From Tolypothrix bouteillei VB521301 (GTDB taxonomy: Bacteria; Cyanobacteriota; Cyanobacteriia; Cyanobacteriales; Nostocaceae), in NCBI RefSeq assembly GCF_000760695.4, contig NZ_JHEG04000001.1, positions 2,439,578 through 2,503,577 on the forward strand: a stretch of 64,000 bases of DNA, given 5' to 3'. Shown one piece after another: positions 3,461 to 27,792 of the stretch. The notes below the pieces were generated by a model. That model did not search any database. It worked only from the letters and a program-made list of their open reading frames with translations, and was not told the origin of the DNA. Made by a program: the position numbers and the translations under genes. Numbering within the stretch: position 1 is the first letter of the stretch; each line of letters starts with the position of its first letter.

Positions 3461-6400
3461 ATGAGCATCTTAGACTTTCCACGCTTGCACTTTCAAGGCT
3501 TTGCCCGCACCCACGCCCCCACGGGACATAAAAACGGTTTGGTAGATCTGAGTACCAACACAGTTTATATGAATGGCGAACGTTTCGATCGCAACCGTCC
3601 TTTATCTGAATACCACGAATATCTTCAAAGCTTGGGACCTCGGTTTAATGCTGAAGGACAATGGGATGAAAACGGTTCTTTCAGTATGGCAAAGGGATGG
3701 GATTTTGGCGGAAACGGTCACTTTGCGATCGAAGCAAAAATTGTCAGTACCCAACGCGAAGCAGGACAAGTTGACCAGCAAGATCCAGCGGTCGGACGCA
3801 GCATTGATATGTGGGGACACTTCAATGATTACTTAGCCACAACTTTCAATCGCGCCCGGATCTTTGATTGCGATCCTGCTTCCAATTGGACAACCACAAT
3901 TATGGTCGGTCAACTGACTTTTGGAAGACAGGGTGTATCCCATGAAGTCCCATATATGCTCTCTGCTCCTGTTGAAGGGATGCAACCCGCTCGCTGGCAA
4001 AACTTTAACTACATTCGAGAATTGCCAGAACATCCCTTGAACGGTGAGTTTAAGCGTGCAGAAGTCTATCAATTCGTCATACCCAAAGACGCCAAAGATG
4101 TGCTTTGGGGTGAAGAAACAGCACTTTCACCAACCGTTTCCCTATTACGTTCTGCAATGGAGCGAGAAGATGTGTTGGGAGTGGTTGTACAGTTTAGCTT
4201 AAGCAATATGTCGGCTCCGTTACAACCCGACTCACCAGTTTTTTGGCATTTACATGGAACTATCGGTTTGTGGTGTGAAGGTGAACTGAAGACTTACCCA
4301 CAAGGTCGGTTGTTAACTCCCCGTCATATCTTTCAAAATCCGGAAGACAGAACGCTGTCTAACCTGACAGTTGCTATTACCCCTCAAGGCGCTAGCTTGA
4401 ATATGGTGACAGCAGTCCCTTGCAACGGACGTGCAATTCAAGCAGGACCGGGACCTACTCATGCGATCGCTTCCAAGCTTGACTTGGGTGAGTTGGAACT
4501 GCGTACAGTAAAAAGCCAGCGATTGGTAGCACGCATTCCCAAGGAAGCATACCAACAACCAGCACATCAACTGACAAGTGGAATTGTAGACGTACCTTTA
4601 GCAGAACCCTTTGAAAATCTGTGTGATGAGATCGAACATCAGGGCTTGTGTATTGTTGGAACACATCCCAACGGTCAGCGACAGATTTTAGTTCGGGAAG
4701 AGGAAATTAATCTCCAAGTTAATGATGCTTGCTTGTTTGTTGAATTTCCAGATGAAAAGCGTGGGTTAGACTACTCTGTAGAATTAGAGGTGAGGTCTTT
4801 TGTCCGGGGTCGTCCCGCACCTGTGGAAACAGTCTACTTGCACCAATTTTACAATCCTAAAGGTTTGCCGCAGTTACGCTATGACTTCGATCGCAATCCA
4901 GAGAATGTCGGGAAAACTTTCCACTTTCCCCAAAGTCTAGACATCGTACATTTCAAACCCGGTAAGCGTGAGGAAATGGGCGATTTTACTGCTAAAAGTA
5001 CTATCGCAACTGATGAACAAGGACGCGGTTGGGTGACTGTGCGGGGAGTTCAATCGGGGACTGCAAGGGTACTGCTATCAACACGGGCTGACGAAATACC
5101 GGGCGATCCTTCACTTACAGACCGAGCGATCGTTAGCTACGATAACGAAGATCGCCTTGGCTTCTGGTCTGGGGCTGGTTCCTTCGCCGTTCGAGTCTTG
5201 ACTAACGATTGGCACTTAGAAGACATTCCAGATGAGTCAGTAGACTTCAACCTCATTTACAAACATATCCTAGCTTTCTACGAACTTTCCTTTTCCTTCA
5301 TGAAAGCCGAGGTCTTCAGTTTAGCGGACAAATGCAAGGTCGAAACTTACGCTCGCCTCATGTGGCAAATGTGCGACCCTTGCAACAAAAACAAAACTTA
5401 TTATATGCCACCCACACGAGATATGTCCCAACCTCAAGCAATGCTTTTGCGTAAATATTTGCAAAACCAACAGCGAGTGGGCTATGTTCCCGAAACCAAG
5501 CCAACACCAAAGAGCACTCAACGCACCATTCAAACTCGCGATGAACTCGTAGCCGCCCTGCGACACGCTGCAGAACTTGAGGTTGCAGTGATGTTGCAGT
5601 ATGTCTACGCAGCATACTCCATTCCCAACTATGTCACGGGTCAAGAGTACGTGCGTCGGGGCTTGTGGACTCCCGAACAACTGCGTCTGGCTTGCGGTGA
5701 CGGTCAGGAGGGACACGACTATGGAATGCGGGGCGTGTTGTTGGATATCTCCCGTGAAGAAATGGTTCATTTCTTGATGGTTAACAATATATTAATGGCG
5801 ATTGGCGAACCTTTTTATCCAGCTATACCCAATTGGAATGAAGCGAATCGACGCTTCCCAATTGAAGTGGACTTTGCTCTAGAACCCTTTGGTCCATCTA
5901 GCTTGCAACGATTCTTACAATTTGAATTGCCTGACTTTTTAGTTGAAGATTTAGCTCATGAAACTGAACCCAACGATCCTAGCGTTGATCAGCTGCATAG
6001 TTATGGTTCGTTGAGCGAACTGTATCGCCAAATTCGTACTGCGATCGAAAATATTCCAGATTTAATTGTTGTTAAAAAGGGTTGCGTTGGTGGCGAACAC
6101 CACCTATTCTTACGAAAAGATACTAATAAATCTCATCCCGATTATCAGTTCCAAGTAGACGACGTCAACAGTGCTCTCTTTGCCATTGACTTAATTGTCG
6201 AACAGGGAGAAGGTTGTGAGGTGGATTCACCTAAGTTTGAAGAATCTCATTACCAAAAATTCCGGCGCATTGCAGATGCACTGGCTCGCGAACAAACCAT
6301 TGATGCGACTACCGGGCATAAATTACCTTGGACTCCAGCATATCCCGCGTTGCGTAACCCCACGCTCCATCACAAAGATTACAGTTCTACTGTTGTGACT

Positions 6401-6814
6401 GTTCCCCAAACCAGGGCCGTGATGCAAATTTTTAACGAGTCTTACTATTTAATGATGCAACTGATGGTGCAGCACTTCGGGTTAATGCCTCATGGTAGTA
6501 TGCGGCGATCGAAGCTGATGAATCCAGCTATTGATGTGATGACAGGTATGATGCGTCCCTTGGGTGAACTGCTGATGACTATGCCTTCTGGGAAACGCGG
6601 GAAAACAGCTGGTCCTTCTTTTGAGATTGCCCACCCACCTACATACATTCCCACACCAGAGATTGCATATCAAGCGATCGCAAGTCGATTTGAACGCCTG
6701 AGTCATCAAGCAAGAGAATGCGAAGTCATCCCCAGCATGGTTTACGAAATGTTTGATTTCTACGCGAGATATTTTGAGGATTTTGCAAAAAATCCCCAGC
6801 ACATATTCGGTTAA
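3461..6814 (+). CDS. Chromopyrrolic acid synthase-like protein (RebD/StaD/VioB family)
   Basis: A 1117-residue protein that begins with the family signature MSILDFPRLHFQGFAR; VioB starts almost identically. The LWGHYNDYL-type block appears as MWGHFNDYL, and the AETYARLMWQMCDP-type block is kept. The C-terminal half is a ferritin-like iminophenylpyruvate dimer synthase domain with ELEVAVMLQYVYAAYSIPNY starting at residue 705 and EEMVH at 766-770, then GGEHHLFL and the LRRSRLMN-like RRSKLMNPAIDVMTG block. RebD/StaD couple two indole-3-pyruvate imines into chromopyrrolic acid; VioB makes the related dimer for violacein. The next genes are RebC- and StaP-like, which favours the indolocarbazole role. 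It is the first gene of a tight operon, 18 bases before the next start. The expected upstream tryptophan oxidase gene is absent. Confidence 0.93.
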   Translation: MSILDFPRLHFQGFARTHAPTGHKNGLVDLSTNTVYMNGERFDRNRPLSEYHEYLQSLGPRFNAEGQWDENGSFSMAKGWDFGGNGHFAIEAKIVSTQREAGQVDQQDPAVGRSIDMWGHFNDYLATTFNRARIFDCDPASNWTTTIMVGQLTFGRQGVSHEVPYMLSAPVEGMQPARWQNFNYIRELPEHPLNGEFKRAEVYQFVIPKDAKDVLWGEETALSPTVSLLRSAMEREDVLGVVVQFSLSNMSAPLQPDSPVFWHLHGTIGLWCEGELKTYPQGRLLTPRHIFQNPEDRTLSNLTVAITPQGASLNMVTAVPCNGRAIQAGPGPTHAIASKLDLGELELRTVKSQRLVARIPKEAYQQPAHQLTSGIVDVPLAEPFENLCDEIEHQGLCIVGTHPNGQRQILVREEEINLQVNDACLFVEFPDEKRGLDYSVELEVRSFVRGRPAPVETVYLHQFYNPKGLPQLRYDFDRNPENVGKTFHFPQSLDIVHFKPGKREEMGDFTAKSTIATDEQGRGWVTVRGVQSGTARVLLSTRADEIPGDPSLTDRAIVSYDNEDRLGFWSGAGSFAVRVLTNDWHLEDIPDESVDFNLIYKHILAFYELSFSFMKAEVFSLADKCKVETYARLMWQMCDPCNKNKTYYMPPTRDMSQPQAMLLRKYLQNQQRVGYVPETKPTPKSTQRTIQTRDELVAALRHAAELEVAVMLQYVYAAYSIPNYVTGQEYVRRGLWTPEQLRLACGDGQEGHDYGMRGVLLDISREEMVHFLMVNNILMAIGEPFYPAIPNWNEANRRFPIEVDFALEPFGPSSLQRFLQFELPDFLVEDLAHETEPNDPSVDQLHSYGSLSELYRQIRTAIENIPDLIVVKKGCVGGEHHLFLRKDTNKSHPDYQFQVDDVNSALFAIDLIVEQGEGCEVDSPKFEESHYQKFRRIADALAREQTIDATTGHKLPWTPAYPALRNPTLHHKDYSSTVVTVPQTRAVMQIFNESYYLMMQLMVQHFGLMPHGSMRRSKLMNPAIDVMTGMMRPLGELLMTMPSGKRGKTAGPSFEIAHPPTYIPTPEIAYQAIASRFERLSHQARECEVIPSMVYEMFDFYARYFEDFAKNPQHIFG

Positions 6815-6832
6815 TAAACTTAGGGAAAAGTT

Positions 6833-8431
6833 ATGAATAATATTGAAACAGATGTTCTTATTGTTGGCGGCGGACCAGTCGGGTTATCAACAGCACTTGA
6901 ATTGCGTTACCAAGGTATCAATTGTATCCTCATAGAGCAATCCGATGGAGTTGTCACTGACCCTAAAGTTAGCACGGTAGGACCCCGCTCTATGGAGCTT
7001 TACCGACGATGGAGTATCTCTCAGCACATACGCAATGCTGGATGGCCTGTCGATCATACTTTAGATGTTGCATGGGTAACGGCAGTAGGAGGTTATGAAA
7101 TATACCGCGTACCTTTTCCATCTTATGCTGAGAGAAGCCTACCTGAATACACGCCAGAACCAGAGCAAGTTTGCCCTCAAAATTTGGTCGCACCCGTTCT
7201 GATGGATGCTTTGGGACAATATCCATCAGGAGTTATTAAACTTCTTTGTCGTTTGGAAAGCTTTGAACAAACGGATGAAGAAGTTGTCGCTAAGGTGACA
7301 AACATAGATTCAGGAAACACGGAAATCATTCGTGCTAAGTATATGGTGGCTTGCGATGGTGCTCGCAGTATAGTCCGTAAAGCTTGTAACGTTGAAACTC
7401 CATCATTCCATCCCACTCAACTGTTTCAAAGCGTTGTCTTTAACGCACCAGAGCTAGCAAGTCAATTGGGCTCGCGCAATGCTATGGTTTTCTTCCTGGT
7501 TAACCCCAAGTTACAAGAACCACTCCGCTCTGTCGATGGACGGGGATCGTACCGTCTCATTCTGAAACCAAAAGAAAACGGTGAGTTGCGCGACCCAGAA
7601 GAAGCTGTTCGAGAAGCGATCGCGATCGATACCCCCATTGAAATTGTTTCCAATCTCAAATGGTATCTCACCCATCGCGTTGCTGACAAATTCCGCCAAG
7701 GGCGCGTGTTCTTTGCAGGCGATTCTGCTCATACACTCTCACCTTCTGGTGGTTTTGGCATGAACACGGGGATATGTGATGCACTCGACCTGGGTTGGAA
7801 ACTAGCTGCTACCCTCAAAGGTTGGGGCGGAGAAAAATTGCTCGATACCTATGAGATGGAAAGACGTCCTATTGCAGTCCGAAACCTCGAAGAAGCAAAT
7901 GCTAACCTCCAACGCGGTCAAAAACGTGCTGTTCCCCCAGCAATTACAAGCGATTCTCCCGAAGGCGAAGCAATTCGGAGATCCATGGCTGAAGGTTTAG
8001 AGCGCAGTAACGTTAAGCGCGAATTCGACGCACCAGGGGTTCATTTTGGATTCCGTTACGAGTCAGCGATCGTTATCCCTGATGGTACGCCTCCTAACAG
8101 CGATCCTTTCCAATGGACTCAAAATAGTTATCCCGGATCGCGAGCACCCCATGCATGGTTAGCACCTGACAAATCTATATTGGATCTTTTTGGTCAAGGG
8201 TATGTGCTGCTGTGCTTCCAAGAACAACAAGGAACCGAAGCTTTTGCCAAAGCTTGCTACGACAGACGCGTTCCACTGACAATCACCTTTATCGAAAAAC
8301 CGGAAATTGCCCAACTTTATGAAAAAGCTTATGTACTCGTGCGACCAGACGGACATGTTGCTTGGAGAAGCGATACTTTACCGAGCGATCCAGGTACTCT
8401 TATCGATCGCGTCCGAGGCTACTTTTCATGA
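6833..8431 (+). CDS. FAD-dependent monooxygenase, RebC/StaC type
   Basis: A 532-residue class A flavin hydroxylase that resembles RebC along its whole length, including the opening IETDVLIVGGGPVG (FAD GxGxxG at 12-17), VGPRSMELYRRW, the DG motif at 175-176, GDSAHTLSPSGGFGMNTG from 296, the EFDAPGVHFG block and VRPDGHVAWR near the end. RebC and StaC act with the P450 RebP/StaP to steer chromopyrrolic acid oxidation toward arcyriaflavin A (RebC) or K252c (StaC). The position matching RebC F216 is V219 here (StaC-like), while that matching R239 is R241 (RebC-like). The stop codon overlaps the next start (ATGA), showing translational coupling with the GST gene. Confidence 0.93.
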   Translation: MNNIETDVLIVGGGPVGLSTALELRYQGINCILIEQSDGVVTDPKVSTVGPRSMELYRRWSISQHIRNAGWPVDHTLDVAWVTAVGGYEIYRVPFPSYAERSLPEYTPEPEQVCPQNLVAPVLMDALGQYPSGVIKLLCRLESFEQTDEEVVAKVTNIDSGNTEIIRAKYMVACDGARSIVRKACNVETPSFHPTQLFQSVVFNAPELASQLGSRNAMVFFLVNPKLQEPLRSVDGRGSYRLILKPKENGELRDPEEAVREAIAIDTPIEIVSNLKWYLTHRVADKFRQGRVFFAGDSAHTLSPSGGFGMNTGICDALDLGWKLAATLKGWGGEKLLDTYEMERRPIAVRNLEEANANLQRGQKRAVPPAITSDSPEGEAIRRSMAEGLERSNVKREFDAPGVHFGFRYESAIVIPDGTPPNSDPFQWTQNSYPGSRAPHAWLAPDKSILDLFGQGYVLLCFQEQQGTEAFAKACYDRRVPLTITFIEKPEIAQLYEKAYVLVRPDGHVAWRSDTLPSDPGTLIDRVRGYFS

Positions 8432-9108
8432 TGAAACTCTACTATGCCCCAGCCTCATCCTACTCCCAGCGAGTCCTCATCGCTCTTTATGAAAAAGACG
8501 CAGCTTTTACACCTATAGAAGTTAATCTTTTTGACAAAGAAGAGCGATCGCAATATACAAAAATTAATCCTTTTGCCAAAATCCCCACGTTAGTAACCGA
8601 ATCCGGTCAAATACTATTTGAAGCTTGCATCATTATCGAGTATCTCGACCAAAAGTTTCAGAACAAACCCCATCTCATCCCACAAGAGCCAAAGCTAGCT
8701 TTAGAGGTACGAATGCTCGAACGGATCGTTGACGCGTACATCAACCGAGGACGTGAAGCGTTATTTTCCGACACTCAGCGTCCGGTGGAAGAACAAGGCA
8801 GTAGTGAGATAAAAAAAGCACATCGATTACTAGAGACAGCGTGCTTGCAACTAGAAGAACGATTGTCTGATAGAACTTGGTTGGCTGGGGAAGAGTTTTC
8901 CCTTGCAGACTGTGCGGCTGCACCCACCTTAAGTTACCTGCGTATGGTTTACAGCTACAAGCATTTCCCTCAATTAACAAATTACGTTCGGCGTTTGGAA
9001 TCCAGACCATCTGTGGCAAAAGTTCAAAACTCCGGACGAGAGCAAATGATACAAATGCTGTCTGCGTTAAAAAACCCTCTTGAATTAATGCCATTGGATA
9101 ATGGCTAA
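8428..9108 (+). CDS. Glutathione S-transferase family protein
   Basis: A 226-residue cytosolic-type GST. The N-terminal thioredoxin-like half has KLYYAPASSYSQRV (the catalytic Ser/Tyr/Cys position is a Ser), KINPFAKIPTLV with the cis-Pro, and a later EYLDQKF segment; the helical half ends with the LADCAAAPTLSYL capping motif and LESRPSVAKV. The ATG at 8428 was chosen because it overlaps the stop of the RebC-like gene as ATGA and has GAGG about 9 bases upstream; a longer frame from 8362 would run inside that gene. Known reb, sta and vio clusters contain no GST as far as recalled, so its step is unknown: conjugation of an electrophilic intermediate, an isomerase, or self-protection are all possible. 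Confidence 0.88.
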   Translation: MMKLYYAPASSYSQRVLIALYEKDAAFTPIEVNLFDKEERSQYTKINPFAKIPTLVTESGQILFEACIIIEYLDQKFQNKPHLIPQEPKLALEVRMLERIVDAYINRGREALFSDTQRPVEEQGSSEIKKAHRLLETACLQLEERLSDRTWLAGEEFSLADCAAAPTLSYLRMVYSYKHFPQLTNYVRRLESRPSVAKVQNSGREQMIQMLSALKNPLELMPLDNG

Positions 9109-9340
9109 TGGCTAATGGTGAGTCCAGCCCTGAAGGCGGGTTTCCCGCCGTAGGGGACTGGTGAGACCAGCCCTGCAGGCGGGTTTCCCGCCGTAGGGGA
9201 CTGGCGAACCCGAAGGGCGAACCCGAAGGGCGAACCCGAAGGGCGAACCCGAAGGGCTAATGGCTAATGGTAATTAACAATTAGCAATTAGCAATTAGCA
9301 ATTAGCAATTAACAATTAGCAATTAACAATTAACAACTAA
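9109..9340. repeat. Composite repeat array (38-mer x2, 13-mer x4, heptamers)
   Basis: Two near-identical 38-bp units (9124-9161 and 9167-9204) each contain a GGCGGG/CCCGCC hairpin. Four perfect 13-bp units (CGAACCCGAAGGG, 9205-9256) follow directly, then CAATTAG-type heptamers from about 9270 to 9335. These are short tandemly repeated repetitive sequences typical of heterocystous cyanobacteria. The array separates the GST gene from the StaP-like P450 within one transcription direction, so it may weaken read-through. Confidence 0.85.
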
Positions 9341-9351
9341 CGGAGCCAAAA

Positions 9352-10602
9352 ATGACCGTTTCTACAATTGAAAGACTTAACCCATTTATACCTGAAGTCA
9401 TCGCAGATCCCTATGCAGTCTATCGGCGCTACAGAGAAGAAGACCCCGTGCATTGGGGAATTTCTGCAAATCCTCAATTGCCTGGTGCTTGGTATATCTT
9501 CCGTTATGACGATGTTATGCAAGTGATGGAAGACCGCAGATTTGGTCGCGAAACTTTGAACGAACGAGAGGATGTTGAAACTACGCCAGTACCAACGGCA
9601 TATAATGCGTTCCTCTCTCTGGTAAGTAACTGGATAGTTTTCCGGGAACCACCCAATCATACACGGCTAAAATCTCTAGCTAGCAAGGCATTCACCCCAA
9701 AAATTGTCGAAAACATTCGTCCAGCCATCTACCAAATTGCAGACAATCTGCTGGATAAAGTTCAAAACCGTGGAGAATTGGATTTGGTTGAGGATTTCGC
9801 TTTCCCTCTGCCAACCAAGGTAGTTGCTATTATGCTGGGTGCTGACCCAGAAGACCTACCATTGTTTCGTGAATGGGCTCTTGCTATGCAGCATGCCAGT
9901 GCTTCCCGTTTGAAACCACCACCAGAAGTTTACGAACAGGCAAACCGTGGTGCTCAATCATTTATCGACTATTTTACTCCTCTAATTGCAGAGCGACGTG
10001 CCAATCCACGGGAAGATCTGATCTCAGCTTTGGTTAAGGCTGCTGATGAAGGCGACAAATTGAGTGACTTTGAAATCGTTGCTACTTGTACTCACTTGTT
10101 GACGGCGGGACATGAAACTACAATCAATCTGATTGCTAAGGGGACACTGGCGTTACTTCACCATCCAGAAGCACTCAAAAAGTTACGCTCCCACCCCGAA
10201 TTTATCCCTGCGGCAGTAGAAGAGTTCGTCCGCTACGACACCCCCATCCAGATGGTAACACGTTGGGCTTATGCAGATGTTGAGGTTGGTGGGAAGTTAA
10301 TCCGGCGCGGGGACAGTGTAGGCGTCATGCTTGGCTCTGCTAACCGAGATCCCGCTCAATTCAAGAATCCCGATGTTCTAGATATACAGCGTCAAGACAA
10401 CAAACACAGTGCTTATGGCGGCGGTATCCATTACTGTCTTGGTTCGTCGTTAGCCCGCGCTGAGGGTCAAATTGCTATAAATGTCCTGCTCAACCGTTTA
10501 CCAGAACTTCGTTTGCTAGACGAGAAGATTCAGTGGGCTAACAATATCGTGTTTCACGGTCCCAATCATCTCAGGGTTGCTTTTAATAAACCTGTAGCTT
10601 AA
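9352..10602 (+). CDS. Cytochrome P450, StaP/RebP-like (chromopyrrolic acid coupling)
   Basis: A 416-residue soluble bacterial P450. The I-helix has the canonical AGHETT (A252 to T257) with acid E255 and alcohol T256, the K-helix has EEFVRYD, and the heme loop is YGGGIHYCLG with proximal Cys362. Features shared with StaP from memory include ADPYAVYRRYRE near the N-terminus, NW(I/L)VF(R/L)(E/D)PPNHT, PIQMVTRWAYADV and VFHGPNHLRV near the end. StaP (CYP245A1) joins the two indole rings of chromopyrrolic acid by aryl-aryl coupling to make the indolocarbazole. It is the fourth gene after the D, C and GST genes; a strong hairpin 50 bases later probably ends this transcript. Confidence 0.92.
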   Translation: MTVSTIERLNPFIPEVIADPYAVYRRYREEDPVHWGISANPQLPGAWYIFRYDDVMQVMEDRRFGRETLNEREDVETTPVPTAYNAFLSLVSNWIVFREPPNHTRLKSLASKAFTPKIVENIRPAIYQIADNLLDKVQNRGELDLVEDFAFPLPTKVVAIMLGADPEDLPLFREWALAMQHASASRLKPPPEVYEQANRGAQSFIDYFTPLIAERRANPREDLISALVKAADEGDKLSDFEIVATCTHLLTAGHETTINLIAKGTLALLHHPEALKKLRSHPEFIPAAVEEFVRYDTPIQMVTRWAYADVEVGGKLIRRGDSVGVMLGSANRDPAQFKNPDVLDIQRQDNKHSAYGGGIHYCLGSSLARAEGQIAINVLLNRLPELRLLDEKIQWANNIVFHGPNHLRVAFNKPVA

Positions 10603-10652
10603 GGACGTATCGGGTTAAATAGTTATTGCAAAAGAGCATTTTTCACTCATAG

Positions 10653-10681
10653 ATTCCCGACTTCTTGAAGAAGTCGGGAAT
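10653..10681 (+). terminator. Perfect hairpin after the StaP-like gene
   Basis: ATTCCCGACTTCTT and AAGAAGTCGGGAAT pair with almost no loop, followed by TTTT. An almost identical hairpin occurs at 16278-16306. It is a good factor-independent terminator and also looks like a dispersed genomic repeat. Confidence 0.75.
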
Positions 10682-10691
10682 TTTGCATGAG

Positions 10692-10721
10692 GTCATAAAA
10701 AGTCAGAAAAGGTCTGAACTC
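10692..10721 (+). promoter_or_regulatory. 10-bp-period direct repeats before the second P450
   Basis: Three units in exact 10-base register: GTCATAAAAA, GTCAGAAAAG and GTCTGAACTC. The following 80 bases also resemble those after the repeats at 12584 and 16435 (a GCTATTT...TTTCCGAAAA block). The array lies about 160 bases upstream of the chosen start at 10879. This looks like a regulatory module copied to several genes of the cluster. Confidence 0.55.
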
Positions 10722-10878
10722 ACGCTGGAGAGCTATTTGGTTTCCGAAAACTCTTTAGTTCTTGATGGTAATTAAACATAGATGAGATTCACTTGAGATG
10801 TTACGCTCCCAGCCAGAACTGATTCTCAAAGGCAATAGAACTATTGTTGGCAATATTGTAATACATATAAGGATCGAA

Positions 10879-12144
10879 ATGATTGAACAACTTTCAACAA
10901 AGCCTGAGAAGAAAACTTGCCCCCATCTTGGAGAAGCTTACCAACCCTTTGCTAATCCACAATTGGAGGAACCTTATTCATTTTATAAACATGCAAGAGT
11001 TGAGGAGCCACTATTTTACAGCCCGTTGTTAAACGGCTATGTTCTTACTCGTTATGATGAGATCCTAACTGTATTGAAAGACCCAGCACGCTTTTCTTCG
11101 ACAGATACTCTCAGCCCGATTGTCGAATTTACGCCTCAGGTGTTTGAAGTACTGCGTCAAGGCTTTCCCTTGGTACGCGATTTGGTTGATAGCGATGGCG
11201 AAGAACACAAACGCTTACGCGCTCCTTTGATGAAAGTGTTTGCACCAGAGCGCCTTGAGGCTATGGAAGATTCTATTCGCGCTATTGCTAATAGGCTGGT
11301 AGATAGTTTTGTCAATGATGGTCAGGCAGACATCATATCGCAATTTGCTTATCCTCTGCCTCTTGAGGCTATCCTCACTATGTACGGTATCCCATTAGAT
11401 AGGATGGCAGAACTCAAGCAGTGGTGCTATGACATGAATGCTTTGATATCGTCTTTTCTAACGCCAGAAGAACAGGTGCAATGCGCTCGCAGTATGGTGG
11501 CGATGCAGCATTTCGTTGCAGGTTTAATCGAGGAACGACGGAATGCACCTTGCAACGACTTAATTAGCAATGTACTTACCTCTAACCTGAATATGCCGGA
11601 GTTGGTGAGAATTTTAATGGGCTTAATACAAGCAGGACATAAGACGAGCTCCCATTTGATTGGGAATGCCTTAAAACTCCTACTGGAACGTCCCCAATCG
11701 TGGCAGGCTATTTGTAACGATTTATCGCTCATTCCTGCTGCTTTGGAAGAAGTACTCAGGTACGATGCTCCAGTCCCAACAATGAGTCGCACAACTACCC
11801 AAGATGTGGAACTCGCGGGAGTTGAACTACCCAAAGGGACTCGTATCTTTTTGATGTATGCTTCCGCTAACCGCGATGAAACTAAGTACAGTAATAGCGA
11901 TCGCTTTGAGATTGAACGTTTTAAACAACCACAAGCTCACCATCTCGCATTTGGTCACGGAGTCCATCACTGTATTGGTTCAAATTTAGCTCGTCGCGAA
12001 GCAAGAATCGCTCTGGAAATCTTGTCTTCGAGATTGCCAAATCTGCGACTGCGCCCAAACCAAAAATTTACCCACGTGCCAACAATGATCTTCCGTGGTT
12101 TTACACGTCTCGAAGTGGAGTGGGATATCCCTCAACAAAGGTGA
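10879..12144 (+). CDS. Cytochrome P450, paralogue A with AGHKT I-helix
   Basis: A 421-residue P450 from the chosen ATG at 10879, which has AAGGA six bases upstream; the frame stays open from 10798 but the extra 27 residues do not look like P450. It starts with a KKTCPHLGEAYQPF segment shared with the next P450. The heme loop is a canonical FGHGVHHCIG with Cys365, and EEVLRYD is the ExxR motif. In the I-helix the acidic residue is replaced: AGHKTS at 252-257, with K255 where E or D is normal. The StaP-like neighbour keeps the Glu. P450s lacking this acid often catalyse couplings or rearrangements rather than hydroxylation, so the reaction is open. It lies between a terminator/repeat module and the VOC gene, which starts 71 bases later. 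Confidence 0.9.
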   Translation: MIEQLSTKPEKKTCPHLGEAYQPFANPQLEEPYSFYKHARVEEPLFYSPLLNGYVLTRYDEILTVLKDPARFSSTDTLSPIVEFTPQVFEVLRQGFPLVRDLVDSDGEEHKRLRAPLMKVFAPERLEAMEDSIRAIANRLVDSFVNDGQADIISQFAYPLPLEAILTMYGIPLDRMAELKQWCYDMNALISSFLTPEEQVQCARSMVAMQHFVAGLIEERRNAPCNDLISNVLTSNLNMPELVRILMGLIQAGHKTSSHLIGNALKLLLERPQSWQAICNDLSLIPAALEEVLRYDAPVPTMSRTTTQDVELAGVELPKGTRIFLMYASANRDETKYSNSDRFEIERFKQPQAHHLAFGHGVHHCIGSNLARREARIALEILSSRLPNLRLRPNQKFTHVPTMIFRGFTRLEVEWDIPQQR

Positions 12145-12215
12145 AACCCATTACATATATCTCTTTCAAACGTTTCTTACTTCAAATAAATATCACATCA
12201 TAAGGAGTTAATCAA

Positions 12216-12590
12216 ATGAGTATTGTAAAAGGCTTGACAAAAATTATCATTTATGTAAAGGATATGAATACCCAAGCCCGCTTTTATCGCGATGTACTGA
12301 ACTTGACAGCGATCGACCCGACGAATGTGGATGACTACAAGGATGTAATTTGGGTAGAGTTTGCCACAGGGGAATGCAGCCTAGTGCTCCATCTAGACAA
12401 AGAGAAGCCACTCGGTCAGGATAGACCAAAGCTCGCATTTAGCGTCAATGACATGGAAACTGCTCACAAGATGTTGACTGAGCGCGGTGCAAAATTAAGT
12501 GATATTCGTTCCCGCAGACCTGGGTTAAAAGTAGCGGATGGTTTTGACCCAGAAGGTAACCCTTTCTCGATTTACTATCAAGAGTCATAA
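12216..12590 (+). CDS. VOC (glyoxalase/bleomycin-resistance) family protein
   Basis: A 124-residue single VOC domain with the beta-alpha-beta-beta-beta repeats: KIIIYVKDM and a FYRDVLNL helix at the start, LVLHLD in the middle, LAFSVNDM and the DPEGNPFSIYY final strand. AAGGAG sits 8 bases before the ATG. Of the usual metal ligands only the mid His and the late Glu (DPEGN) are plainly present; the first-strand and third-position His are missing, so it may act without metal, as a binder, isomerase or cyclase helper. Its stop codon overlaps the first unit of the repeat array at 12584. It sits between two P450s and is probably transcribed with the first. Product role in the pathway is unknown. 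Confidence 0.85.
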   Translation: MSIVKGLTKIIIYVKDMNTQARFYRDVLNLTAIDPTNVDDYKDVIWVEFATGECSLVLHLDKEKPLGQDRPKLAFSVNDMETAHKMLTERGAKLSDIRSRRPGLKVADGFDPEGNPFSIYYQES

Positions 12591-12623
12591 AAAGACAGAA
12601 AAAGTCAGAAAAGGTCTGAACTC
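12584..12623 (+). promoter_or_regulatory. 10-bp-period direct repeats before the third P450
   Basis: Four units in 10-base register: GTCATAAAAA, GACAGAAAAA, GTCAGAAAAG and GTCTGAACTC. The first unit overlaps the stop codon of the VOC gene. The similarity to the other copies extends about 70 bases downstream, including TTTGCGAAAA. Confidence 0.55.
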
Positions 12624-12758
12624 AAGCTATAAAGCGATTCCGTTTGCGAAAAGCACTCAGCCATAGCTGTTAATTAACAATAGATGATTCACAAGGTTGC
12701 TTCATCCTTGGTGGAAATATTTCTTTCTAGATTTTTTGTAAGTTTAAGAGACGAAAAA

Positions 12759-14075
12759 ATGGATAACGTTGATACCCTGCAAGCACACAATCTAGCGTTC
12801 AATGACCAACAAGATGAACAATTGAGTGAGGAGAAAGGAATAGAAAAACAGCAAAAGACTTGCCCTCATCTTGGAAAAGAGTTTCACCCCTTTGTTAATC
12901 CATTACTGGATAACCCTTATCCCTTCTATAAGCATGCTAGAAATGAAGAACCAATCTTTTTCAGTTCACTATTGAATGCTTATGTTCTGACGCGATATGA
13001 AGATGTTTTAACAGTACTGAAAGATCCAGTACGATTTTCTTCTGCACAAAGTCTCCAATCTGTTGGCGACTTTGCTCCTGAGACAATTGAAGTGTTGCGT
13101 CAAGGCTTTCCCGTTGTTTCACTTATTGGTAGTGATGGCGAACAACACAGGCGCTTCCGTGCTCCTTTTTTGAAAGCTTTCGCCACAGAAAAACTAGTCG
13201 CTATGGAAGGCTCAACTCGTGCGATCGCTAACAGATTGGTAGACAATTTTATCAATGATGGTCAGGTAGAAATCTTATCAAAGTTTGCTTATCCTCTGCC
13301 CCTTGAAGTTATCTTCAATATGTACGGTGTTCCTTTAAATAAGATGGCAGAAGTGAAGCATTGGGGTAGTGAAGTTACAGCTTTGTTTTCTACACCTTTA
13401 ACGCCAGAACGACAAGTTGAGTGTGCTCGCAGCTATGTTGATTTACAGCATTTTATGGCACGTTTAGTTGAAGAACGACACATTTCACCTAACGGCGACA
13501 TGATTAGCGATCTATTAACTAGTGACTTAACTGTACCAGAGATAGTGCTGCTTTTATGTGAGATGATTGTAGCAGGACATAAAACAACTGCTAATTTAAT
13601 TGGCAAAGCTTTAAAACTTTTGTTAGAACAGCCTGAGTTGTGGCAAAGCCTCTGTGATGAACCATCTCTTATTCCTATTGCACTAGAAGAGGTATTGAGG
13701 TACGATACTCCAGCTGCATCAATGATTCGGGTTACTACACAAGAGGTTTCCCTCGCCGGAGCCACATTACCTAAGGACACGCGCATCCTTTTGCTGTATG
13801 GTTCTGCCAATCGTGATGAAAATCAGTATCCTGATAGCGATCGCTTCAACATTGAACGTTTCAAACAGACACCTGTTAACCATCTCGCATTTAGTCATGG
13901 AGTTCATCACTGCACGGGTTCTAATTTGGCTCGTCGGGAAGGACGGATTGCTCTAGAAGTTTTGTCTTCACGCCTGCCAAATCTCCGGCTTCGTCCGAAC
14001 CAACAACTAACACATATTCCTGCATTGCTTAACCGAGGTTACGCACAACTCTATTTGGAGTGGGACAGGGCTTAA
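12759..14075 (+). CDS. Cytochrome P450, paralogue B with AGHKT I-helix
   Basis: A 438-residue P450 from the ATG at 12759; the frame opens at 12684, but that ATG lies in the repeated upstream module and its homologous position in the other copy is not a start. It is a close paralogue of the P450 at 10879, sharing TCPHLG, NPYPFYKHAR, VLTRYEDVLTVLKDP and EVLRYDTPA. The heme loop is FSHGVHHCTG with Cys385, where the first Gly of FGxG is Ser. The I-helix again has Lys at the acid position: AGHKTT at 272-277. A tailoring role on the indolocarbazole is inferred from context. The tandem P450 pair suggests duplication followed by divergence in activity. Confidence 0.9.
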   Translation: MDNVDTLQAHNLAFNDQQDEQLSEEKGIEKQQKTCPHLGKEFHPFVNPLLDNPYPFYKHARNEEPIFFSSLLNAYVLTRYEDVLTVLKDPVRFSSAQSLQSVGDFAPETIEVLRQGFPVVSLIGSDGEQHRRFRAPFLKAFATEKLVAMEGSTRAIANRLVDNFINDGQVEILSKFAYPLPLEVIFNMYGVPLNKMAEVKHWGSEVTALFSTPLTPERQVECARSYVDLQHFMARLVEERHISPNGDMISDLLTSDLTVPEIVLLLCEMIVAGHKTTANLIGKALKLLLEQPELWQSLCDEPSLIPIALEEVLRYDTPAASMIRVTTQEVSLAGATLPKDTRILLLYGSANRDENQYPDSDRFNIERFKQTPVNHLAFSHGVHHCTGSNLARREGRIALEVLSSRLPNLRLRPNQQLTHIPALLNRGYAQLYLEWDRA

Positions 14076-14200
14076 TGAGTGGAGTACCGGACTTGAGCAT
14101 TGTGCGATCGCAAGTTAAGCCAACTCTTCACTTTTATCTCACAGCGATTGATAACTTTTACTAAAGTGTTGTTACTCCATACAAAGTTTCGTACTACTAT

Positions 14201-14245
14201 AACTTTTGTCTTTGTTAATAACTCCTTATAACTAAGACAAAAGTT
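14201..14245. promoter_or_regulatory. Inverted repeat between P450 and MFS-FHA genes
   Basis: AACTTTTGTCTT and AAGACAAAAGTT are perfect 12-bp arms around a 21-base spacer, 190 bases before the MFS-FHA start. No T-run follows. It could be an operator or a mild terminator. The rest of 14076-14436 is AT-rich with one HIP1 site and no gene. Confidence 0.4.
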
Positions 14246-14436
14246 CTATTGAATCAATAGATTTTGCTAATTGGCAACTAGAAATATTTGCCAAACAATT
14301 TGAGGAATATATTTCTCTATAATAAATATATTGATTTTTTTGAGATTCTTCATCTCACAAGCACAAAATCGTATTTTTGATTTTCCTTCCAACTCACATT
14401 TTTTAGAAAATCTTTGCAAATTAAGGAAGAAAACGG

Positions 14437-16080
14437 ATGAGTTCTTCTATAAGTCCAACCAAAATCAAACCTGCAAGTAAGATATACCAGGATAAAAACT
14501 TTTACATTATTAATGCGATAACACTTATAGCAATTTTGGGTGGAACAATTTTTAATCCAGCACTACCAACTATATCAAAAGTTTTTAGTGTTTCCAGCGA
14601 ACAGGTGTCATTGGTTGCAACGCTCTTTCAATTCCCTGGTGCGATTGTAACTCCAATCTTTGGAGTTTTAGCTGACACTTTTGGTAGAAAGCAAATCTTA
14701 GTACCTTCCCTACTTATATTTGCTTTGGGTGGAACTTTAAGCGGCTTTGCCCAAAGCTTTCGCAGTCTTTTAGAATGGAGACTTATACAAGGTATTGGTA
14801 CTGCAAGCTTAGAATCTTTACAACTGACTATAATTGGCGATCTCTACAGAGGAAAACAGCTGGGCTCTGTTATGGCGTTTAATGCTGGATTAATCGGCAT
14901 AAGTTCCGCACTTTTTCCTCTCATTGGTGGACTTTTAGCTGGTTTTAGCTGGCGGTATCCATTCATAGTATCATTGCTTGCCATTCCGATTGCTCTGTTG
15001 GTATTATTCACACTCAAACTGCCAAAGCAACAAACCAACCAGCAAAATTTTCAACTAAAACCTTATCTCCAAAGTACCTGGAGTAGCATTAACAACCGCC
15101 AAGTTGTAGGGCTGATGTTTGCAGTGATGGTACAATTCATGCTGCAAGTAGGAGCTTGCTTAACTTACATTCCAATTTTGGCAGGAAATGAGTTAGGGGC
15201 ATCTGAAGCTTTTAATGGTTTTCTGCTGACTGCTATATCGCTTGCTGTTGCTGTTGTTGCTTCTCAACTAGGACGGCTGACACAGAAATTTTCTGAAATT
15301 AAGCTTATCAAATTTTCTTTTATTCTTGCTGCTATTGCATTCCTGATTGTTCCCTTTGTTCATAACGTATGGCTGCTATTTATCCCGATTGTGTTAATTG
15401 GTGCAGCCCAAGGTCTTGCGTTTCCATCCACGCAAGCGTTGCTAGCAGGGCTTGCTGCACAAGAATCTCGAGCCGGTTTTATGGCAGTAAATTCAACAGT
15501 ACAATCCTGGGGACAAACACTTGGTCCTTTGCTTGGAAGCATTGTTGATATGATTTTAGGAACGCGGGCGGTTTTTGCAACTAGTGCGGTTATTTCATTA
15601 ATCGCATTAGTCATTTTCAATGCTCTGCTAGCAACTAAAAAACCAAGCCCCAGTCCTTCGTCGGATAGTCCTTCGGTTGCTCTCAGCTTTGTGAATGCAG
15701 AACAAGTTAGTTTCGAGCCTAGCTTTGTTGAAGTTCCCACAGTTGCAGAAAAACCTGTTGCCAGATTATTCCATGTTCAAAGCAATAAAGTTATTGAATT
15801 ACCCGATAATTTCTCTCTCATTCGCATAGGAAAACCTAACAAACGCAGCTTTCCTGATATCGATTTATCTGGATTACCCAATTCTGATATTGTTTCTCGG
15901 ATTCATGCAGAAATTAAATTTGAGGGAGGAGAATACTACATTCAAGATATGGGCAGTTCTAATGGAACTTACATTAATAAATATCCTCTATTACCCGGAA
16001 TTTGGTATAAGTTAAAGCCCGGTTTGACCTTCAGTATCGGTAGGCGAGATGCAGTCTCTTTTAAATTTCAAATTGCTTAA
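14437..16080 (+). CDS. MFS transporter with C-terminal FHA domain
   Basis: A 547-residue fusion. Residues about 20-405 form a 12-TM drug-export-type MFS, with the A-loop ADTFGRKQ after TM2 and the LEWRLIQGIG region in TM4. A linker rich in Ser and Pro (about 405-440) leads to an FHA domain: LIRIGKP, VSRIHAEI with S487, R488 and H490, then GSSNGTYIN with S507 to T511, all hallmark phosphothreonine-binding residues. FHA domains read Ser/Thr kinase signals. As the transporter at the end of the biosynthetic genes it likely exports the product, perhaps with its activity or location set by phosphorylated partners. RBS AAGGAAG precedes the ATG. Its closest relative in the window, at 16577, lacks the FHA part. 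Confidence 0.9.
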   Translation: MSSSISPTKIKPASKIYQDKNFYIINAITLIAILGGTIFNPALPTISKVFSVSSEQVSLVATLFQFPGAIVTPIFGVLADTFGRKQILVPSLLIFALGGTLSGFAQSFRSLLEWRLIQGIGTASLESLQLTIIGDLYRGKQLGSVMAFNAGLIGISSALFPLIGGLLAGFSWRYPFIVSLLAIPIALLVLFTLKLPKQQTNQQNFQLKPYLQSTWSSINNRQVVGLMFAVMVQFMLQVGACLTYIPILAGNELGASEAFNGFLLTAISLAVAVVASQLGRLTQKFSEIKLIKFSFILAAIAFLIVPFVHNVWLLFIPIVLIGAAQGLAFPSTQALLAGLAAQESRAGFMAVNSTVQSWGQTLGPLLGSIVDMILGTRAVFATSAVISLIALVIFNALLATKKPSPSPSSDSPSVALSFVNAEQVSFEPSFVEVPTVAEKPVARLFHVQSNKVIELPDNFSLIRIGKPNKRSFPDIDLSGLPNSDIVSRIHAEIKFEGGEYYIQDMGSSNGTYINKYPLLPGIWYKLKPGLTFSIGRRDAVSFKFQIA

Positions 16081-16277
16081 TGAGTTATATCGTGTTCGGA
16101 TAATGGCTTACGATTAAAAATTAAGCATGTCGCCGCGTATCCCAATCTCCGCGTCATTCTTATCGTCATTACTTAGGCGAACCTGGTATTAGTGGTTAGT
16201 GGTTAGCAGGCAATTATTCATGAAATTAGACTAACAATGGATAATCCACAATCCTAGCAATGTATAAATTCCTATCG

Positions 16278-16306
16278 ATTCCCGACTTCTTGAAGAAGCC
16301 GGGAAT
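16278..16306 (+). terminator. Second copy of the dispersed hairpin
   Basis: The same hairpin as at 10653 with one change (AAGAAGCCGGGAAT), followed by TTTTG. In both places it stands upstream of a 10-bp repeat module, here by about 130 bases. Confidence 0.65.
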
Positions 16307-16434
16307 TTTGTAGAAAGTCAGTACCCGTGAAAATTAATTTTCTCTTCATGTTGCCTGAAATACCTGTGTAATCGTGATTCTAGGTTCTAGAGATATATAA
16401 ATAAATTGACCTAGCTACTCAATTGTAGACAAGA

Positions 16435-16474
16435 GTCATAAAAAGACAGAAAAGGTCTGAAAAGGTCTGAACTT
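16435..16474 (+). promoter_or_regulatory. 10-bp-period direct repeats before the second MFS gene
   Basis: Four units in 10-base register: GTCATAAAAA, GACAGAAAAG, GTCTGAAAAG and GTCTGAACTT. The sequence just upstream (CAAGAGTCATAA) equals that at the end of the VOC gene, so the similarity to the 12584 copy starts before the repeats. The downstream block with CCAGAGCTATTT and TTTGCGAAAA is also shared. Confidence 0.55.
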
Positions 16475-16576
16475 AAGCTCCAGAGCTATTTAATTTGCGA
16501 AAATGCTTCAATTCTGGATGTTGGTTAAATACAGAAGACAATCACTGAAAAGTATCACCAACAACTACTAACTACT

Positions 16577-17818
16577 ATGAAATTTCAACAAGATAAATCA
16601 AATCCTATCTATAAAGATAACAATCTCTATATCATCATCAGTATAACACTGATATCAGTTATGGGTGTGATGGCTATCAATCCAGCACTACCAGCCATTG
16701 GGGAAGCTTTTAAGGTTCCAGATGAACAAATTGGATTGGTGATGGCAAGCTTTCTGATCCCAATTGCAATTGGAACTCCAATCTTTGGCATTTTGGCTGA
16801 CCGTATTGGTAGAAAGAAAATCCTTATTCCTTCTTTACTGCTGTTTGCACTTGGCGGAATTTTAAGTGCTTTTGCACGGGATTTTCGCAGTTTATTAGAG
16901 TGGAGATTTTTGCAAGGCGTTGGCGCTGCTAGTTTGGAGTCTTTGTCTCTTACTGTCATTGCGGATGTTTACTCTGGGAAGATGTTGACTGCTGCTATGG
17001 CATTTAACGCCAGTATGATTGGCATTAGTGCAACAGTTTATCCTCTCGTTGGGGGTGGATTGGCGCAACTTAGTTGGCAATACCCATTTTTACTCTCATT
17101 TCTTGCTCTCCCAATTGCGTTATTAGCGTTGACAAAGCTAAAACTACCAAAAACGCAAAGCCAAAGGTCTGTTGAAGATTTCAATATCAAAGCTTATGTG
17201 AGCAGTACTTGGCAAAGTATTAACAACCGTTCTGTATTAGTGCTGTTGTTTGCGGTATTGTCTTTATTTATCTTAGAATTTGGTGCTTGTTTTATCTGCA
17301 TTCCACTTTTAGCGGCGAATCATCTCGGTGCATCTGGTGCAGTCATTGGTATTATCCTTGCCAGTATGGAAATAACTCTTGCTTTGTTTGCTTCTCAATT
17401 GGGGCGCTTTGCTCAGAAGTTCTCGGAAGTTACACTTATTAAAATCTCGTTCGTCATCTGTGCTGTAGCACTATTCATTGCTCCCTTAATAAGTAATGTG
17501 TGGTTGCTTTTTATCCCCGTGCTTATCTTTGGTGCAGGTCTTGGTATTGCACTACCATCTATCCAAACAGTCTTTGCACGTCTTGCACCAGAGGATAATC
17601 GTGCTGGATTTATGGCAATGAATGTGACTCTCCAATCTTTGGGAAGGGCGCTTGGTCCCGCTTTAGTCGGTATTGCCTTTGGATTTATAGGAGTTCAAGG
17701 AGCTTTATATGCTAGCGCTATTTTTTCCCTGGTTACATTCATAGTGCTGAATTCTTTCCTAGTAGGAACAGTACACAAACCTGAGTTGAGCCGGAAAGGT
17801 GAGCATTACATCGGGTAA
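16577..17818 (+). CDS. MFS transporter, paralogue of the MFS-FHA protein without FHA
   Basis: A 413-residue 12-TM MFS protein aligned throughout with the N-terminal part of the protein at 14437: NPALPAIGEAFKV, ADRIGRKKILIPSLLLFALGG, LEWRFLQGVGAASLESL and a similar second half. It ends after TM12 and has only a short hydrophilic tail. It belongs to the drug:H+ antiporter 1-like group. The upstream region shares the cluster's repeat module, so it is probably co-regulated with the P450s. The pair likely arose by tandem duplication, with the FHA domain gained or lost. Substrate is inferred from context only. Confidence 0.88.
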   Translation: MKFQQDKSNPIYKDNNLYIIISITLISVMGVMAINPALPAIGEAFKVPDEQIGLVMASFLIPIAIGTPIFGILADRIGRKKILIPSLLLFALGGILSAFARDFRSLLEWRFLQGVGAASLESLSLTVIADVYSGKMLTAAMAFNASMIGISATVYPLVGGGLAQLSWQYPFLLSFLALPIALLALTKLKLPKTQSQRSVEDFNIKAYVSSTWQSINNRSVLVLLFAVLSLFILEFGACFICIPLLAANHLGASGAVIGIILASMEITLALFASQLGRFAQKFSEVTLIKISFVICAVALFIAPLISNVWLLFIPVLIFGAGLGIALPSIQTVFARLAPEDNRAGFMAMNVTLQSLGRALGPALVGIAFGFIGVQGALYASAIFSLVTFIVLNSFLVGTVHKPELSRKGEHYIG

Positions 17819-17913
17819 ATGAATAATTATGTAGGTCAACCAAAAGTCAGACAGGGGTGGATCGTTTCCCCCCTACTTAATAAACCAGAAATGATTCATA
17901 ACAAATAAATTCT

Positions 17914-18867
17914 ATGTATCTCTTAAAAAAAAGCTTATTAATTTTTAACAATTTAACTTTAGCTAAAAAACTGACTGCACTCCTGTTACTTGTATTTATT
18001 GAAGGAATTGCTCTAAGCGGAATAGCTTTAGCTGGCGTTTTAAATTACAAAACTCAAGACGAAATTAGCTCAAGCGCCTGGTTATTGCTTCAGACTATCA
18101 ACTCTGTTCGCTCTTATACAACAACTGAAGTCGTTCCTCAATTACAACCTCGTTTGGATAATAGTGAGTTTTTACAGCAGGCAATTCCAGCTTATTCCTC
18201 ACGAAAAGTCTTGGAAGATTTACAAAAGAAAAATGAAAGATTCAAAGACTTTCTTTATAAAGAAGCAATGCTAAATCCTACAAATATTCGAGATAAAGCC
18301 GATACTTTTGAAGCGACAATTGTTAAAGAATTTCAAAAGAATAAAAATCTGAAAAACTTGTCAGGGTTTCGTTCTCTTTTGGGAAAAAACTTTTTTTACA
18401 TTGCGCTCCCTCTATCTATCACTGAATCTAGTTGCTTGCAGTGTCACAGCACACCTGATGTTGCTCCTAAAACAATGATTGATATGTATGGCGATCGCAA
18501 TGGGTTTGGTTGGAAATTAAATATGGTCAATGGTGCTCAAATTGTTTCTATTCCCGCTAATGAAGTTTTACAAAAAGCTCGACAGTCGCTGGTTATAGTC
18601 ATGGGAATTGTTACTCTGATTTTTGCCAGTGCTATTTATATAGCTAATTTTTGGCTGAAACGTTATGTTGTTAGACCTATTAAACAGGTTGTTCGGGTAA
18701 CAGAAGCAGTCAGTACTGGTAATTTTGATGTTGAGTTTGAGAAGGTAGCAAATGATGAAATAGGTAGCTTGATAGAAGCTTTTACACGTATGAAGTTGAG
18801 TTTAGTTATGGCAATTAGAAGGTACGAGCGTTACCGAATAGTCAATCGAGAAGAACATGGAAAATAG
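17914..18867 (+). CDS. Heme-binding DUF3365/HAMP protein lacking an output domain
   Basis: A 317-residue membrane sensor. TM1 is about residues 18-42, then a periplasmic DUF3365 (Tll0287-like) domain with the c-type heme motif CLQCH at 174-178, TM2 at about 226-248 and a HAMP domain (KRYVVRPIKQV to about 300). The protein stops some 20 residues after HAMP, where related proteins continue into a histidine kinase, GAF or cyclase module. It may act as a partner subunit or be a remnant. DUF3365 heme domains are thought to sense redox state or gases. It follows the second MFS gene by 95 bases in the same direction but has no clear tie to the cluster. Confidence 0.85.
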   Translation: MYLLKKSLLIFNNLTLAKKLTALLLLVFIEGIALSGIALAGVLNYKTQDEISSSAWLLLQTINSVRSYTTTEVVPQLQPRLDNSEFLQQAIPAYSSRKVLEDLQKKNERFKDFLYKEAMLNPTNIRDKADTFEATIVKEFQKNKNLKNLSGFRSLLGKNFFYIALPLSITESSCLQCHSTPDVAPKTMIDMYGDRNGFGWKLNMVNGAQIVSIPANEVLQKARQSLVIVMGIVTLIFASAIYIANFWLKRYVVRPIKQVVRVTEAVSTGNFDVEFEKVANDEIGSLIEAFTRMKLSLVMAIRRYERYRIVNREEHGK

Positions 18868-27608: not shown

Positions 27609-27755
27609 TTAAAGCCCCGTCCTTCTAGGACGGCTTTTCTTCAATTTCCGAATTAACTCGCGAATCACATCGCTTTGAGTGCGATTTGTTTCTTTGCAAT
27701 GCGCTACTAGTATCTCGTACTCTTCGTCTGAACACCGCACTGTTAATTTTTTCAT
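27609..27755 (-). CDS. Small ribbon-helix-helix protein of the tnpB element
   Basis: A 48-residue protein from the ATG at 27755. KKLTVRCSDEEYEILVAHC is the beta strand and first helix and TQSDVIRELIRKL the second helix of a CopG/MetJ-type DNA-binding fold. It is divergent from tnpB with 37 bases between the starts, so it may repress both genes. Its last codons (SRPRRTGL) are encoded by the left-end hairpin. Such a small ORF beside tnpB is a recurrent layout in cyanobacterial elements. Confidence 0.7.
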   Translation of the reverse strand: MKKLTVRCSDEEYEILVAHCKETNRTQSDVIRELIRKLKKSRPRRTGL

Positions 27756-27792
27756 GCCGTCATATTGCCGTCGATGGTGGTATAATAGTAGC

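Follow-up and report, generated by a model that had tools for sequence, protein, structure and literature searches.

A probable indolocarbazole pathway in the cyanobacterium Tolypothrix bouteillei and the conserved gene set that surrounds it

The kinase-inhibitor field owes a lead compound to the indolocarbazoles. Here we describe an indolocarbazole-type gene cluster of Tolypothrix bouteillei VB521301 (assembly GCF_000760695.4), whose 9.95 Mb genome is assembled in two contigs. The cluster lies in a stretch of 64,000 nucleotides of the larger contig (NZ_JHEG04000001.1, positions 2,439,578-2,503,577; henceforth the window) and includes the genes D, C, and P, which encode relatives of RebD/StaD, RebC/StaC, and StaP/RebP. 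Judged by its sequence, the cluster is real, is homologous to a known kind, and is a conserved cyanobacterial gene set for which we found no description in the open-licence literature (titles and abstract openings in partly capped lists, with subscription papers outside the search), be it of the full set or of a product known to come from it.

In each indolocarbazole cluster the genes O, D, and P are described as preserved, RebC and StaC as catching an unstable intermediate that becomes an imide or a lactam, and RedE as reducing the intermediate (PMC10851217). The same source puts the lambda max of indolocarbazole spectra at about 290-300 nm. For tjp, a characterised cyanobacterial cluster from Symphyonema bifilamentata 97.28 (once classed as Fischerella ambigua 108b), a 2021 report noted no occurrence in other genomes (PMC8065813), and the enzymes named for tjipanazole D are a halogenase, an oxidase, a chromopyrrolic acid synthase-like protein, a P450, and an FAD monooxygenase (PMC10300848). 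Maleimide indolocarbazole loci are predicted by PRISM4 in Chlorogloeopsis (PMC11392904); they resemble the window locus in predicted class and are presented in that source as a prediction, without gene-by-gene description. The P of Chlorogloeopsis sp. ULAP02 is 71% identical to the window P, and some metagenome proteins bear automatic labels such as 'chromopyrrolic acid synthase' and 'StaC'.

The window locus shares homologues of D, C, and P with the reb and sta clusters, and its C is 54% identical to RebC, but its oxidase is unlinked, the cluster holds neither halogenase nor sugar genes, and it carries a glutathione S-transferase (GST) gene that was not found in 18 relatives from named genomes, among which the reb and sta loci do not figure by name. 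Compared with tjp, its D has 70% identity to Tjp2 and its P 65% to Tjp9, both Tjp proteins standing among the best 120 relatives of their queries, and an FAD-binding monooxygenase is likewise reported for tjp, whereas the tryptophan halogenase and oxidase of tjp (PMC10300848) were not found at the locus. Like the violacein (vio) pathway, the window has a D of the VioB family, and O bears a distant likeness to VioA (46.6 bits against a cut-off of 600); unlike it, the locus is without VioC, VioD, and VioE.

Homology, layout and distribution of the core genes

An initial annotation, made from the DNA letters alone, had proposed that D, C, and P are relatives of RebD, RebC, and StaP and that they form an indolocarbazole-type cluster in a cyanobacterium. 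Both proposals are supported by our comparisons. The best PDB match of C is RebC (2r0c, 643 bits, with the next solved family at 188 bits), and that of P is StaP (2z3t, 382 bits, followed by PksS at 311 bits). No other solved family comes as close to either protein, which supports the indolocarbazole reading. D has no PDB relative at E up to 1; it is placed among the chromopyrrolic acid synthases by a 983-bit match that is to the NCBIfam VioB model TIGR04492 and lies below the equivalog cut-off of that model, 1250, and it is 42-49% identical to actinobacterial D.

Phylogenies did not put the proteins outside these families. The trees were quick ones with SH-aLRT support, their rows being proteins that cover >75% of the query (at >34% identity for C and >38% for P), with long-branch and composition warnings for rows from other phyla. 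In the C tree, rooted on Burkholderia, the window belongs to a cyanobacterial group of 24 rows (SH-aLRT 95), separate from a group of 18 that unites RebC with actinobacterial C (97). The D tree splits 41 cyanobacterial rows from 11 actinobacterial ones. In the P tree, 46 P rows (the window, Tjp9, other cyanobacterial sequences, and 16 actinobacterial ones) stand apart from the other two P450s of the window, P450a and P450b, to which P is 31-32% identical, compared with 41-47% for actinobacterial P. All 16 actinobacterial rows fall in a single group (100), set among the cyanobacterial ones by forks of weak support, and a clean cyanobacterial group is therefore lacking in the P tree; StaP is not a row in it, and the kinship of P with StaP rests on the PDB match.

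The cluster comprises ten genes in the same direction (3461-18867):

3461-6814, + strand: D, RebD/StaD/VioB-type imine dimer (chromopyrrolic acid) synthase, 1117 aa (TIGR04492, 983 bits; PF12902, Ferritin-like)
6833-8431, + strand: C, RebC/StaC-type FAD enzyme, 532 aa (RebC 643 bits in PDB; tree; residue comparison)
8428-9108, + strand: GST, glutathione S-transferase, 226 aa (PF13417/PF00043; start overlaps the C stop)
9352-10602, + strand: P, StaP/RebP-type indolocarbazole synthase P450, 416 aa (StaP 382 bits in PDB; tree)
10798-12144, + strand: P450a, presumed tailoring cytochrome P450 (PF00067)
12216-12590, + strand: VOC/glyoxalase-fold protein, 124 aa (PF00903)
12684-14075, + strand: P450b, second presumed tailoring P450 (PF00067; 62% identical to P450a)
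14437-16080, + strand: MFS transporter fused to a C-terminal FHA domain (PF07690 + PF00498)
16577-17818, + strand: second MFS transporter (PF07690)
17914-18867, + strand: Tll0287-HAMP membrane protein, possible sensor and possible cluster edge (PF11845, PF00672)

All open reading frames (ORFs) named in the initial annotation are open across their coordinates, and the domain scan confirmed the GST, the two further P450s, the VOC protein, the MFS-FHA fusion, and the second MFS transporter. Only 18 bases separate D from C, and the GST start codon at 8428, which overlaps the C stop as ATGA, replaces the mechanically chosen TTG at 8362. The D-C-P order, said earlier to be that of the actinobacterial clusters, holds for part of the actinobacterial loci and, in the window itself, is interrupted by the GST to give D-C-GST-P. 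Among 18 loci fetched with C from named genomes (17 actinobacterial and one Burkholderia), D, C, and P follow one another closely in seven (L018, L019, L022, L029, L030, L031, and L035), while D lies further upstream in five and downstream in four and has no match in two (L025 and L034). The genes around the core that had seemed unfamiliar are indeed present, but they are not peculiar to the window and recur across the family. Upstream of the cluster lie an OsmC gene and a GmrSD-type gene, and downstream a GATase_3-MurT pair, all on the other strand. Our Pfam scan covered 19 ORFs of the first 24 kb and 20 of the 33 ORFs of at least 130 aa in the rest of the window; it found no halogenase among them. 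The glycosyltransferases and methyltransferases that the scan did find lie at least 7 kb past the cluster (26391 onwards) and apparently belong to other gene groups. A transposon-type OrfB/TnpB-like gene (PF07282, PF01385) occupies 27679-28917.

We searched 217 genomes of the family to which the window's genome belongs for D, C, P, and O, the four genes covered by our genome-level counts. D is present in 41 (E up to 1e-50), P in 37, and C in 28 (E up to 1e-120), and the genomes with C fall within those with P, and these within those with D, without exception. Such nesting argues that the association is not due to chance; the overlap of D and P in 37 genomes has a hypergeometric p of 1.3e-37, a value that ignores shared descent. 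Across the phylum, evenly sampled with 386 genomes, the VioB model matched five, strongly only the window's genome and one other (G300), and the same two alone had C (E up to 1e-100). Gene neighbourhoods were compared in 41 loci with D, the window (24.5 kb) and 40 others of at most 20 kb each, some ended by the contig, so that unlinked genes can be missed.

Proposed route and alternative readings

Gene family membership, the operon-like layout, and the nested co-occurrence of C, P, and D are what the comparisons show directly. On this basis the locus very probably encodes a cyanobacterial indolocarbazole pathway leading through chromopyrrolic acid to an arcyriaflavin A- or K252c-type core, followed by P450 tailoring and export. 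One of two unlinked RebO/StaO-like oxidases would turn L-tryptophan into the imine of indole-3-pyruvate; D would couple two imines, the dimer closing to chromopyrrolic acid; P would bridge the two indole C2 atoms; and C would catch the unstable dicarboxy intermediate, yielding an imide (arcyriaflavin A type) or a lactam (K252c type) core. The GST, whose gene layout suggests co-translation with C, might act on or protect glutathione-reactive intermediates, P450a, P450b, and perhaps the VOC protein may decorate the core, and the MFS proteins would export the product.

Three observations weigh against this reading. C is missing, at E 1e-120, from nine of the 37 genomes with P, and is therefore not essential in the family. 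D has no oxidase as a neighbour at the window locus, nor at L068, a locus from the same genus. And the residues of C are divided between imide and lactam. We took the RebC/StaC switch positions from a comparison of the PDB sequences 2r0c and 4eip, and their numbers assume that the PDB chain is offset by 20 residues. Ten positions are changed in the StaC-like variant RebC-10x. The window C agrees with RebC at four of them (E36, Q37, Q117, and R239), with RebC-10x at four (K46, S48, V216, and S231), and with neither at two (S38 and I241). We lean towards the imide because Q117 and R239 are kept, although it is quite possible, if the less favoured outcome, that C acts like StaC, so that the core would be K252c, a lactam, instead of the imide arcyriaflavin A. 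The four RebC-10x-like residues speak for that outcome. Q117 and R239 speak against it, being A and N in RebC-10x and in P0109, a relative with the same ten letters. R230, R239, and W276 of RebC are retained throughout the 89 relatives closest to C (P0002-P0090; 59-76% identity), the constancy of R239 again arguing against a StaC-like C; V216 is likewise found in all 89, and Q117 in 83, the other six having H. The named members of this group are cyanobacteria, except one metagenome-assembled genome labelled Methylacidiphilales. As to the oxidase, its absence from the locus, together with a P450a cut to 95 aa in L068, could mean that the locus is a decaying remnant whose oxidase has been lost and whose pathway is silent. 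We regard this as very unlikely: the window genes are full length, the genome has, at other sites (5.88 and 8.81 Mb; C1:5876837 and C1:8810828), two full-length O homologues of 501 and 504 aa (66-67%), and relatives also have unlinked pathway parts, such as G411, where C-GST-P lies far away from D.

Could the pathway be the tjp pathway, with halogenase and oxidase encoded elsewhere? The kinship of D and P with Tjp2 and Tjp9 favours this, as does the enzyme list given for tjipanazole D, and the genome has matches to the Pfam Trp_halogenase model above its cut-off at C1:8174840-8175937, C1:8836240-8837172, and C1:7512822. These matches are modest, however (89 + 51 bits on one 500-aa ORF and at most 30 bits on others), the model also matches five of 14 control genomes, E. 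coli included, and no pathway-gene relatives surround the first two matches. No halogenase was found nearby, that is, among the window ORFs scanned, and no protein named Tjp occurs in the best 120 relatives of C; a tjipanazole product is therefore unlikely. A chlorinated product was also considered and found no support in these matches. Calothrixin, weighed as a product of the Calothrix clusters, was dropped, with nothing speaking for or against it and no search aimed at it. That D instead serves a violacein-type pathway is close to inconceivable. The D of the violacein-type locus of Anabaena azotica (L069, G548:C30) is, it is true, 78% identical to the window D, but no VioE, VioC, or VioD was found in the first 24.5 kb of the window (1-24,500), and the window has a P, whereas no P was found in four loci with VioE. 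An indolocarbazole pathway remains the reading we prefer.

The oxidase that such a pathway would draw on is widespread among the relatives. O occurs in 38 of the 41 genomes with D and in one genome without it (39 of 217 in total; E up to 1e-100), lies inside the fetched stretch in 23 of the 41 D loci, immediately before D in many of them, and was found, at 37-48% identity, in 16 of the 18 loci from named genomes. Within 20 kb around each of the two unlinked O genes of the window's genome there is no relative of D, C, P, or GST. Near one of them is a P450 that is 33% identical to the c16 P450, and near the other, at 5.88 Mb and on the same strand, is a peptidoglycan-binding-like gene 46% identical to the type found in clusters (L119:8234-10000, C1 ~5.875-5.877 Mb); the link of either gene to the pathway is uncertain. 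Tryptophan-synthesis genes are linked to D loci as well (TrpA in 7, TrpB in 7, and TrpD in 9 of 41), and in some relatives (L070, L072, L073, L102, L105, and others) they sit upstream of O-D.

The violacein branch of the D lineage and the exchange of P

Every one of the 41 genomes with D has P or VioE. The four without P (G434, G463, G474, and G506) each have a VioE homologue, 39-73% identical to VioE of locus L091, and two of them (G434 and G474) have VioC and VioD too, while two further genomes (G548 and G432) hold both violacein-type and indolocarbazole-type loci. Violacein-type clusters thus occur in cyanobacteria at L069 of A. azotica, L072 (G474), and L107 (G434), with VioE also at L091, L125, and L126. 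VioC and VioD of L069 score 768.5 and 633.8 against NCBIfam cut-offs of 760 and 620, and VioE of L091 scores 273.9 against 177; the Vio proteins of the remaining loci are homologues by tblastn. In the literature covered here we found no description of violacein genes in cyanobacteria.

The D tree puts the violacein-type D of G548 and that of G474 inside the cyanobacterial group, with the D of the P-bearing genome G482 (100) and with Tjp2 (83). One D lineage therefore appears to serve both violacein-type and indolocarbazole-type loci. VioB and RebD make the same imine dimer, and a shared D lineage feeding both branches fits this chemistry. In L107, L125, and L126 the VioB-like D is split into two adjacent ORFs of ~690 and ~415 aa; split or partial D, among them those of L102, L103, L106, L107, L125, and L126, were omitted from the tree.

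P has a history of its own. For D and C, the window finds its nearest match in the same-genus genome G544 (94% and 91-92%), but the window P is 92-93% identical to the P of G452-G454 and only 76% identical to that of G544. Forcing the P of the window and of G544 together costs 103.5 log-likelihood units (p-AU 7.65e-12, for a clade chosen after seeing the tree). At the DNA level, the window and G544 are 87-92% identical at the C end and the GST, 74% over P (1280 bases), and 95% over the 280 retained bases of P450a, a gene that is mostly missing in G544. What these alignments show is exchange of P alone, in the lineage of either the window or G544, presumably by recombination. We also considered that P and P450a were swapped as one block and rejected it: the P450a remnant of G544 is 95% identical over its 280 bases, and the low values arise from alignment to the paralogue P450b.

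A conserved GST and the accessory genes

GST is present in all 25 of the P-bearing D loci among the 41 examined, and tblastn (E up to 1e-5) found no match to it in the 18 named-genome loci or in six loci with VioE. Actinobacteria use mycothiol in place of glutathione, which fits the failure to find GST in actinobacterial loci. In eight of the nine genomes that have P and no C, GST adjoins P, and in the ninth (G482) one ORF stands between them. Given this constancy of GST and the lack of a match to it in those loci of other phyla and in those with VioE, we take the accessory genes to belong to the pathway. The 25 P-bearing loci also hold MFS-FHA (21), VOC (19), a small peptidoglycan-binding-like protein (17), O (15), P450a/b-like genes (14), C (14), and RidA (12), and a Tll0287-HAMP homologue was found by clustering in 17 of the 41 loci. 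The genes do not always stay together: in G537, P-P450a-P450b lies ~25 kb from D-C-GST. The nearest solved relatives of P450a are the 6ldl/6gii/6laa/6ro8 (P450 RhF) group. The fusion of MFS with a C-terminal FHA domain at 14437-16080 looks unusual, and its homologues recur in relatives. In L074-L089 and L104, one to four tandem peptidoglycan-binding-like genes of ~74 aa lie between the P450 and MFS-FHA genes; no such gene was found in the first 24.5 kb of the window.

We tentatively suggest, as an idea more apt to fail than to hold, that the cyanobacterial GST is an obligate partner of the P450 step, capturing the reactive dicarboxy-indolocarbazole formed by P, together with C or, in the nine genomes with D and P and no C, in its place. 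Capture may proceed through a glutathione adduct or through glutathione-assisted decarboxylation or isomerisation. If this is true, GST would be a third control of the dicarboxy intermediate, beside oxidation by RebC/StaC and reduction by RedE, and the conserved GST is in any case a concrete new candidate step. The tjp cluster was once reported as not found elsewhere, yet homologues of Tjp2 and Tjp9 (D and P) occur together in 37 of 217 genomes of a single cyanobacterial family. With P or VioE in every genome that has D, the branch point between violacein and indolocarbazoles would become testable within one enzyme lineage.

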